Positions 330 to 7,709 of a stretch of DNA of 43,571 bases are shown here, in pieces. The position numbers and the translations under genes are program-made. Position 1 is the stretch's first letter. Each line of letters begins with the position of its first letter. A model generated the notes under the pieces. The model saw nothing but the letters and a program-made list of their open reading frames with translations, was not told where the DNA came from and did no database searches. The stretch comes from Mycoplasmataceae bacterium (GTDB lineage: Bacteria > Bacillota_I > Bacilli_A > Mycoplasmatales > Mycoplasmoidaceae), in contig JAIRME010000005.1 in NCBI GenBank assembly GCA_031258945.1, positions 1 through 43,571 on the forward strand, given 5' to 3'.

Positions 330-2339
330 ATGAAAAAATGAAAATTTAATAAAAATAAAACTTTTACGCATATGGTAGCGTTAACATCAATCGCTTGCAT
401 CAGTATCACTTCTACTTTAACCAGTTGTGGTTTATCAGCCGATCAGATTAAAACATTAATATTACCAACCGTAAAACAGTTTACAGATTATCAATATAAA
501 TCTTATACCATTAATGAACAAACATCGCTTGCATATGATGAAACCAGTATACCAAATGGTGCTACTCCTGAATATCCAAGGGATGGTTCGCGTCGACAAA
601 TGGTAAAGGAAATTATTCAAAATATTTCAGGTGAATATTATGCTAAATTACTCCAAACAAAACATCCACTCAATAGTCATGTAGAGTTTAAAACTCATAT
701 TGATAATAATGAGCATGAAATTTCTTTCATTTTTATCAATGATCACCTTGATAATCTCCCCGAAATAACCATCAATAAATATCCAGAAGCATATCAAATA
801 GAAATTGGGAATAAAATTATCATTAAAGCTTTTAACGAGCAAGGTTGAATTATAGCTGCTCGTACTTTATTACAGTTACAAGTAAGTAATGGTAGCATTC
901 CTTACGGAAAAATGTCGGATTGACCTAAAATTAAAGAACGTGGGATTGAATTTGATTTTTCAGGAAGAGGTTATTCCTTAAACTTTGTCGCCGATTTAAT
1001 CAAATCCATGTCATGAAATAAATTAAATACTCTTGCTTTACGTTTTGCTAGTGGCGGCATGAGATTAGACTGTAAAAAAACTGACGAAGTTGATCCAGAA
1101 AAGGAAAAACCTACAAGTGGCACCTGATTTAAAATTGATTGAAGTCAATTTGATTCAACCGGTATGGATTACTTTAATCTAAATACTAATTATCGTGATA
1201 ATAGTCCAACTTGAGATTATCGTGAAGGAAACGATACACCTGAATCTGGTTTTAGTGATTTTGGTAACATCCTTAATTTAGCTTTCAAAGAAGGAGTAAA
1301 TATTATTCCCGAAATTAATATTTTCACTCATGCTTGGTTTTTAACTGATCTAACAGCACCCAGAGACATAGATGGCAAAATAATTAGTGATGGTCGAGGA
1401 GTAACTGATTCAAATGTTAAAGCAAAAGATTTTGCCATCTGGGATGATCGTTCGGATGATCCAGACTATCCATTAGGTAAACGGATCCCTGATTCATTGG
1501 ATTTACGTGGCAAAAAACCTGGTTCCAAAGCAGTTATTGATCTTTGCAAAAGATTTGTAACTTATATGGCTAATCGTTTTACATCAGTAGGTAATTACAA
1601 TAAACATGCTCTTTTATCTTTTGGAATAGGAGGAGACGAATATATTGAAACCTTAGATAATTCTTGAAATGGTTCACAAAATGCCAATATTTGAACTGCT
1701 TCAAGCAAACAAGATATAGTTAATTCTATTTATACATTTAGTAAAACTATGTATGATGTGCTTAAAACATCTGGCGTAACAAATGTAGCGCAATGGTCTG
1801 ATTCGTTGTTAAAACAGTATCCAAATAATGATTGGCCTAAAGCAAATGCTACCAATTGAGATCCAATTGTGGCAGACGCTGATCTATTAACAATTAAACA
1901 TTGATGATCAAAATATGGAAATGCTTCAATTGATGATTTTACTAAACTATATGTAGAAGGACGGGTAGGTGGTGGCATACAAAACGTTGTAAACTACAAT
2001 TCAGATCTATTATATTTTTCTGATGATGAATCTAACACAAGTAGCGCTCCTACTACCCAAAGTTTGTTTGATAGCTTTCATCCTGGCATTTTTGCTGGTA
2101 ATGCTGGATTGTTTCTAGATAATAATGGTGTTAATTACGATGAATATCCAACATGATTGCGAGGATCAATGCTATCGGTTTGATGAGACTGATCACCACA
2201 TGTAGCTACTATGATTGATGGCCCAATGCGTGCTTTTGCTCAAAAAACCTGGAATGGAACTAATAACGCATTAAGCTTTAATCAATTTAATAATTTAGTG
2301 GATAAATTGGGTCGTGCTCCATTGATAGACTGAAATTAA
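330..2339 (+). CDS. Glycoside hydrolase family 20 (beta-N-acetylhexosaminidase-like) lipoprotein
   Basis: A 669-aa protein when TGA is read as Trp. The N-terminus is a Lys-rich, hydrophobic signal ending in lipobox LTSC (Cys33), so it should be exported and lipid-anchored outside. The GH20 catalytic barrel begins near residue 205. It shows the substrate Arg in FSGRGYSL (R213), IPEINIFTHAW in place of the usual IPE-x-PGH strand, and the GGDE signature with catalytic pair D436-E437. The C-terminal region has YPTWLRGSMLSVWWDW and RAFAQKTW, matching the Trp-rich end of GH20 enzymes. Residues ~35-200 would be the GH20b-like accessory domain. Family members remove terminal GlcNAc/GalNAc from glycans or chitin fragments; the actual substrate cannot be told here. 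The start at 330 was chosen because it supplies the full signal peptide. Confidence 0.88.
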
Positions 2340-6153: not shown

Positions 6154-6266
6154 TAGATGTTTAAAACACTTGTATCTTTTCTCCAATATAAGCAAAGCTT
6201 ATTAAATTTAAATTGAACTAAATAACGATTAAATGTGTACAAATACAAGTTTTAATGTTATTGATT

Positions 6267-6272
6267 TATAAT
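6267..6272 (+). promoter_or_regulatory. -10 box just upstream of the hydrogenase gene
   Basis: TATAAT lies 9 nt before ATG 6282 and downstream of an in-frame ATG at 6255. This favours 6282 as the real start, with a very short or absent leader. Confidence 0.5.
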
Positions 6273-6281
6273 CGTAATTCT

Positions 6282-7709
6282 ATGCGTAAATTTGAAACCG
6301 ATGTTCAAAAACTAAAATATGATATTTTGGTGCAAGTCATTAAGGCTTTTGATAACAATAAATTGTCATCTATCTATCACGATATTCCTAAAATTGTTTC
6401 CCCAGGCCCAGCACCAACCATGCGTTGTTGTGTTTTTAAAGAACGTGCTATTGTGCAAGAACGAATTAAGTTAATTATGGGTGGTAATGAACAAAAAAAG
6501 CACGTTATTCAAATGATTGACATAGCCTGTGACGAATGTCCGGTAGGTGGCATTTTTGTTACTCCATCTTGTCGTGGTTGTTTGAGCCATCGTTGCCGTG
6601 ATGTTTGCCCCAGAGGAGCAATTACCATTGTTGAACGTAAAGCAGTAATTGATAAAAACAAATGTATTGAATGTGGTTTATGTGTTAAGACTTGTCCTTA
6701 TCATGCAATTGTAAATCAAGTTCGTCCATGTGTTGAAAGTTGTGGGGCGAAAGCAATTAATATGACAAATTTACGCAAAGCAACTATTGATGATGAAAAG
6801 TGTATTGCTTGTGGCAATTGTGTTTATCGTTGTCCTTTTGGTGCATGTGTTGATCGTTCCTTCATTATTGACGCAATTAAAATATTAAATAATAAGCAAA
6901 ATAATGTTTATGCAATTGTAGCACCGTCCATTGTAGGACAATTTGATTACATAGATGTTGAACAACTCATTACCGGAATTAAACAATTAGGCTTTAAAAG
7001 AGTGATAGAAGTGGCTTTAGGTGCTGATTCTATCTTACAAGACGAAGCAAATGAATGATTAAAGAAAAAAATATTGACTTCTTCATGTTGCCCATCCTTT
7101 AAATTTTTTGTTCATAAAAATTTTCCAACCCTTGCCAAATATATTTCTCAAAGTGATTCGCCGATGGTAGCCACAGGTAAATTGATTAAACAGAAGGAAC
7201 CAAAAGCTAAAGTCATTTTTATTGGTCCTTGTGCTTCTAAAAAAACTGAATTTCAATTACCCCATGCTAAGCCTTATATTGATTGCGTTATTTCTTTTGA
7301 AGAATTACAAGCATTATTTGACGCGCGTCAAATTCATTTACATGGTATCAAACCTACTAAATTGAATGATGCATCATTTTATGGTAGAATTTTTGCTAAA
7401 AGCGGCGGAATTTTAGCTGGCGTTAAAAATTTGGTAGAACAATATGATAATAAAAATTTCCATGGTATTGCAATGAACGGCATTAAAGAGTGTGATAAAT
7501 GAATGCGCGCACTGTTGACAAATAAATTAATTCAAAATTTCTTTGAGGGAATGGCCTGTCGTGGTGGATGTTTAAACGGCCCATTAGGTTTAAAGCATAA
7601 TGATCAAATGTTAGCAAATATTGATGCTTTTGGTGAACGCGCTGAACAAAACGATCCAAATATTTCTGTTAATAAATTTGACAAAAGTTGAAACAAACCG
7701 CAGAAATAA
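6282..7709 (+). CDS. hydA: [FeFe] hydrogenase, monomeric, group-B-like
   Basis: A 475-aa enzyme that makes or consumes H2 in the cytoplasm, passing electrons through Fe-S clusters. The N-terminal half has a Cys-rich block (CDECP...CRGC...CRDVC) and two ferredoxin-type motifs (CIECGLC, CIACGNC). The H-cluster domain shows all three signatures: TSSCCP (C269/C270), GPCASKK (C317) and GMACRGGC (C426, C430). The TSSCCP form and the leading RCCVFKERAI region match the clostridial group B enzymes rather than the classic TSCCP type. I chose ATG 6282 (MRKFETD) over 6255 because a -10 box lies between them and homologues begin there. Three TGA codons encode Trp. The HydE/F/G maturases are not in the window. 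Confidence 0.93.

Follow-up and report, generated by a model that had tools for sequence, protein, structure and literature searches.

Conserved [FeFe]-hydrogenases in a genus of Mycoplasmatales lacking recognizable HydE, HydF and HydG

Members of a mycoplasma genus carry conserved [FeFe]-hydrogenases in genomes where none of the three known maturases was detected, which is more unusual than a simple H2-making mollicute. The gene that led to this pattern lies at 6282-7709 of the window, the whole 43,571-nucleotide stretch analysed here (contig C38 of a Mycoplasmatales MAG of 835 kb, 46 contigs and 85.8% completeness). We put a probability of roughly 0.5 on this gene encoding a real, selected, ferredoxin-linked fermentative group B1 hydrogenase whose diiron site would be supplied without HydEFG. 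HydEFG are held to be essential for [FeFe]-hydrogenases, and the hydrogenases of Giardia and Entamoeba, found without them, are an old open question.

Identity, coding and ancestry of the B1 gene

The protein encoded at 6282-7709 matched the NCBIfam family TIGR04105 (FeFe_hydrog_B1) at 520.7 bits over model positions 1-460 of 462, against a curated cut-off of 450 bits, bearing out the group B assignment of the first-pass annotation; group A hydrogenase models scored far under their own cut-offs. Pfam recovered Fe_hyd_lg_C (187 bits) and several Fer4 motifs. All three H-cluster motifs, the four cluster cysteines and the proton-relay cysteine are present (Table 1), and 16 of 16 cysteines in the N-terminal Fe-S domains are invariant across 22 diverse B1 enzymes, so every H-cluster and ferredoxin signature is intact, as had been claimed. 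An AF2 model built from a 22-sequence alignment (mean pLDDT 91.1) has the predicted [FeFe]-hydrogenase fold, with the H-domain and ferredoxin-like domains both present; VIA-align placed it close to CbA5H (Z 36.5) and CpI (Z 35.1), and Foldseek matched it to CpI (4.7e-21); the Desulfovibrio enzyme was a further structural match. The enzyme class is almost certainly group B1 [FeFe]-hydrogenase.

Table 1. Coordinates of the hydrogenase features (window positions, except for the operon on contig C8)
Feature	Position	Strand	Basis
Group B1 [FeFe]-hydrogenase gene, 475 aa, code 4	6282..7709	+	TIGR04105, conserved start, predicted fold
N-terminal Fe-S cysteines C83, C86, C97, C100, C105, C109 (accessory ferredoxin-like domain)	6528..6608	+	Invariant in 22 B1 enzymes
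[4Fe-4S] motif CIECGLCVKTC (C128-C138)	6663..6695	+	Pfam Fer4; invariant cysteines
[4Fe-4S] motif CIACGNCVYRC (C174-C184)	6801..6833	+	Pfam Fer4; invariant cysteines
TGA = Trp, W259	7056..7058	+	In-frame codon
H-cluster motif L1 TSSCCPSF (C269, C270 = CpI C299, C300)	7077..7100	+	Invariant in 22 B1; alignment to CpI
H-cluster motif L2 GPCASKKTE (C317, K320, E323 = CpI C355, K358, E361)	7224..7250	+	Invariant in 22 B1
TGA = Trp, W407 (Trp invariant in genus)	7500..7502	+	In-frame codon, genus alignment
H-cluster motif L3 EGMACRGGCLNGP (M424, C426, C430 = CpI M497, C499, C503)	7545..7583	+	Invariant in 22 B1
TGA = Trp, W470	7689..7691	+	In-frame codon
Operon hydC (NuoE/HoxE-like)-hydB (NuoF-like)-hydA	L083:719-4875 (contig C8)		Profile matches

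The open reading frame at 6255-7709 (+) is open only with code 4 (table 4), with three TGA codons inside the frame. Since the start codon at 6282 (MRKFETDVQ...) is kept in 8/8 genus homologues, the gene bounds 6282-7709 are correct. The earlier view that the gene is a long-standing resident of a mollicute that reads UGA as Trp is borne out. The data come from a MAG, and a contaminating or mis-binned contig might be suspected; this reading, to which we assign a negligible probability, is already contradicted. Window genes adjoining B1 likewise read TGA as Trp, so the contig did not come in from an organism with the standard code; an A-type hydrogenase gene on a separate contig also uses TGA for Trp, and B1 orthologues were found in seven further genomes of the genus.

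The nearest public homologues belong to Mycoplasmataceae bacterium MAGs, and B1 proteins from the genus are 65-85% identical to the 6282-7709 protein, with full-length frames in 8/8. In the B1 tree, the genus sequences form a single clade (100/100 support) beside gut Bacteroidales (L113, L114) and two Clostridia (L118, L119; long branch). The first-pass annotation had proposed clostridial group B enzymes and Izemoplasmatales for comparison; of these two, the tree covers Clostridia, and it groups the mycoplasma clade with gut Bacteroidales and some of the Clostridia rather than with the Bacilli sampled. This position, away from the sampled Bacilli, suggests lateral transfer of B1 into the ancestor of the genus, followed by descent with losses.

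Redox partners and the search for maturases

The source genome encodes the partners that a ferredoxin-linked hydrogenase would use. Profile searches located a pyruvate:ferredoxin oxidoreductase (PFOR) gene on contig C28 (1639-1673 bits), and contig C42 encodes a 57-aa 2[4Fe-4S] ferredoxin; both had been named as things to look for, and both were found. Because PFOR and ferredoxin are encoded, reduced ferredoxin can form, and a hydrogenase would be a natural outlet for it; at the gene level, this supports a putative PFOR-ferredoxin-hydrogenase route. PflA is also encoded in the genome, and the window holds an Fe-ADH and an alanine dehydrogenase-like enzyme (profile matches) together with enolase, phosphofructokinase and pyruvate kinase, judged from their sequence. 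At 330-2339 (+), the window further encodes a lipoprotein-like glycoside hydrolase family 20 protein with 17 TGA = Trp codons.

A second [FeFe]-hydrogenase, an NADH-type HydABC (group A6 in NCBIfam naming), is encoded outside the window on contig C8. Its HydA scored 835.6 bits against NF040763 (cut-off 765), and among solved structures it comes closest to Acetobacterium woodii HydA1 (7q4v, 653 bits). The serine in its TSCSPGW motif was considered as a sign of decay, a reading rejected since A. woodii HydA1 has the same motif. Relative to the electron-bifurcating HydABC of A. woodii, the mycoplasma system has the operon order hydC-hydB-hydA and a genome without maturases. Hydrogenases occur in 20/36 genomes of the genus, A-type in 19 (one just below cut-off) and B1 in eight, with overlapping sets. 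Five genomes (G007, G015, G017, G031, G020) have a shorter A-type enzyme of 446-466 aa without the NuoG-like N-terminal part (L024-L027, L029), with maturases missing there too, and G011 encodes a 582-aa A-type hydrogenase (L100:3935-5683; TSCCPGW) with no adjoining hydB or hydC and with PFOR about 1.6 kb away. A literature search among open-licence papers found no earlier report of hydrogenases in Mycoplasmatales, nor of a PFOR-ferredoxin-hydrogenase route in true mycoplasmas.

None of the maturases was found with the partners. No genome of the genus (0/36) had HydE, HydF or HydG over cut-off, including the 20 that carry a hydrogenase. The HydG profile gave zero matches among 60 relatives; the HydE profile gave nothing in the source genome and at most 28 bits in other relatives (cut-off 255); and the HydF profile hit other GTPases solely through their GTPase part, at no more than 101 bits (cut-off 326). 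A HydF hidden among the latter was rejected, since coverage extended only over positions 2-195 of 392. The six radical-SAM proteins of the source genome (MiaB, HemW, MtaB, PflA, RlmN and NrdG) all scored over cut-off in housekeeping families, leaving none for HydE or HydG, and a divergent radical-SAM maturase in this genome was likewise rejected. Among conserved neighbours, no candidate for a new maturase was seen around hydABC or B1, the neighbours being housekeeping or variable genes.

Alternatively, maturases may exist in these genomes and have escaped the search through extreme divergence or assembly gaps, as the incomplete source genome and the MAG or draft status of all genus genomes might allow. 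We consider this improbable. Identical profiles, serving as positive controls, reached 421-929 bits in other Bacilli, and no scores in the checked set fell between these matches and background; every radical-SAM protein of the source genome is assigned; and, were losses independent, MAG gaps would hide one and the same gene in 20/20 of the genus MAGs with a hydrogenase at a probability of about 2e-17. The known maturases are thus very likely missing genus-wide, to judge from profile searches. The first-pass annotation had made its proposal of an H2-making mollicute depend on HydE, HydF and HydG, and the proposal does not follow, because neither the source genome nor the genus has these enzymes, for which the need is established. 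Its converse, that loss of all maturases and of any ferredoxin-reducing enzyme in a complete genome would dispose of the idea, held only in part: the maturases are missing, but the genome encodes PFOR and is only 86% complete.

Active-site conservation and the maturase gap across Bacilli

Strong purifying selection acts on the two hydrogenases and extends to residues that contact only the diiron site. Omega was 0.06-0.10 for the nearest B1 pairs in the genus, where dS is close to saturation, and 0.03-0.04 for three A-type pairs whose dS (0.24-0.30) is not saturated. In CpI numbering, with equivalences read off an alignment of the B1 protein to CpI, C299, C300, S319, P324, C355, K358, E361, F417, M497, C499 and C503 show no variation across 22 diverse B1 enzymes; according to established structural work on CpI, the contacts of several of these residues are confined to the diiron part or its proton path. 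The diiron-contact residues are invariant in the eight genus B1 proteins and nearly so in the 19 genus A-type enzymes. The patchy occurrence (B1 in 8/36 and A-type in 19/36 genomes) and a B1 gene neighbourhood that varies between genus members could point to a relic or a recent acquisition without function. However, omega values well below 1 already contradict this very improbable reading, as do the single, fully supported clade with its within-genus identities, the full-length frames and the TGA = Trp usage.

A more serious alternative is that these are apo-enzymes holding [4Fe-4S] clusters only, in which case HydABC would be a ferredoxin:NAD+ oxidoreductase, B1 would relay electrons much as a ferredoxin does, and neither would carry out H2 chemistry. 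In favour of this reading, all three maturases are missing, PFOR brings a need to reoxidise ferredoxin, and HydB (NuoF-like) and HydC (NuoE-like) are intact, so that NADH chemistry would be independent of the H-cluster; purifying selection could equally maintain an apo-form. Yet if the diiron cluster had been lost long ago, relaxation would be expected at the diiron-contact residues, and none is relaxed: the equivalents of CpI C299, S319, K358, F417 and M497 are invariant B1-wide, in maturase-free genomes too, whereas sensor-type paralogues beside B1 in other Bacilli vary at those positions (e.g., TSACHS). We regard apo-enzymes as possible but rather unlikely, and an active hydrogenase that is matured through another route as about an even chance.

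The gap extends well beyond the genus. In an evenly drawn sample of 247 Bacilli genomes, B1 was over cut-off in 54 (source genome counted) and HydG in 17. HydE was found in seven of the 53 other B1 carriers, HydF in the same seven and HydG in five of these; HydE and HydF co-occur without exception in this set. All three were missing from the remaining 46 B1-bearing Bacilli beyond the genus, most of them 91-100% complete, so that the gap is no quirk of the source MAG or its genus. Many of these Bacilli B1 genes, unlike those of the mycoplasmas, sit in an operon that in L163-L169, L172 and L178 comprises a thioredoxin-like [2Fe-2S] ferredoxin (83 aa), a PAS-bearing sensor-type hydrogenase (~560 aa) and a SpoIIE-like phosphatase (~390 aa), followed by B1. 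Given this operon, some Bacilli B1 enzymes may serve sensing.

Two Bacilli genomes, G226 (L175:3-5387) and G239 (L176:6639-13999), encode HydE and HydF without HydG. The two genes are clustered with a pair of nitrogenase-like proteins (PF00148) and with Hyp genes, of which HypD and HypE are confirmed and HypC was recognised by eye. This cluster may supply the Fe(CO)(CN) unit independently of HydG. Such a route was rejected for the mycoplasma genus on searches for PF00148, HydE and HydF: in 18 genus genomes, PF00148 had no match over cut-off, and HydE and HydF were likewise under cut-off.

Possible cofactor sources and their meaning

In the fermentative reading, PFOR would reduce ferredoxin, B1 would reoxidise it with protons as acceptors to yield H2, by analogy with gut Bacteroides group B enzymes, and HydABC may couple NADH and ferredoxin to H2. 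The gut enzymes are active, bind the diiron site and reoxidise PFOR-derived ferredoxin to form H2 (Welsh et al. 2025, PMC12578642); the main text of that paper names none of HydE, HydF and HydG. With these group B (B1) enzymes of gut Bacteroides and Firmicutes, the mycoplasma protein shares its NCBIfam family, its motifs and a likely PFOR-reduced ferredoxin partner, and it is 51% identical to a gut Bacteroidales homologue. Unlike them, it belongs to a host that reads UGA as Trp and has a genome without HydEFG. Among wall-less Bacillota, Ca. Mycoplasma girerdii has PFOR, ferredoxins, PFL with its activase and code 4, and no hydrogenase gene was found in it (Costello et al., PMC5476646); it thus resembles the source genome in PFOR and ferredoxin, with zero hydrogenases against two. 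Xianfuyuplasma/Izemoplasma has an [FeFe]-hydrogenase like the mycoplasma but differs in having hydEFG, which are present in a cultured member of the Izemoplasmatales (PMC8397711).

With the residues around the diiron site still invariant, the enzyme probably receives its cofactor, which would then arrive without HydEFG. One candidate source is a set of proteins belonging to an as yet undescribed maturation route; another is uptake from gut neighbours that do have maturases and could provide the cofactor or a precursor. Such uptake is chemically conceivable, since an externally supplied synthetic diiron complex enters living E. coli and activates apo-enzyme there (PMC6984386). A table in one review lists activities for a few [FeFe]-hydrogenases produced in E. 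coli with maturation credited to the "host", among them one Entamoeba enzyme and one from a termite protist (PMC7460606). That the genus and many other Bacilli assemble a diiron H-cluster without HydEFG, through undiscovered maturation or cofactor from neighbouring cells, is a tentative proposal that we hold at somewhat below even odds.

Comparable gaps have been described in protists. Hydrogenases are present and HydE, HydF and HydG were not found in Giardia (PMC6397501) or are absent in Entamoeba (PMC4967309), and the maturation proteins of the cytosolic Spironucleus hydrogenase were termed unknown (PMC6397501). These are eukaryotes, whereas the mycoplasmas and other Bacilli are bacteria, with many species affected together.

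The maturase gap is now seen in a bacterial genus with a strongly conserved active site and in most other B1-bearing Bacilli sampled. At the gene level, PFOR-ferredoxin-hydrogenase metabolism is extended to true mycoplasmas. If the enzymes are inactive, hydrogenase genes alone would be an unreliable indicator that H2 is produced in gut metagenomes; if they are active, they would point to unknown cofactor biology that is accessible in culturable bacteria.
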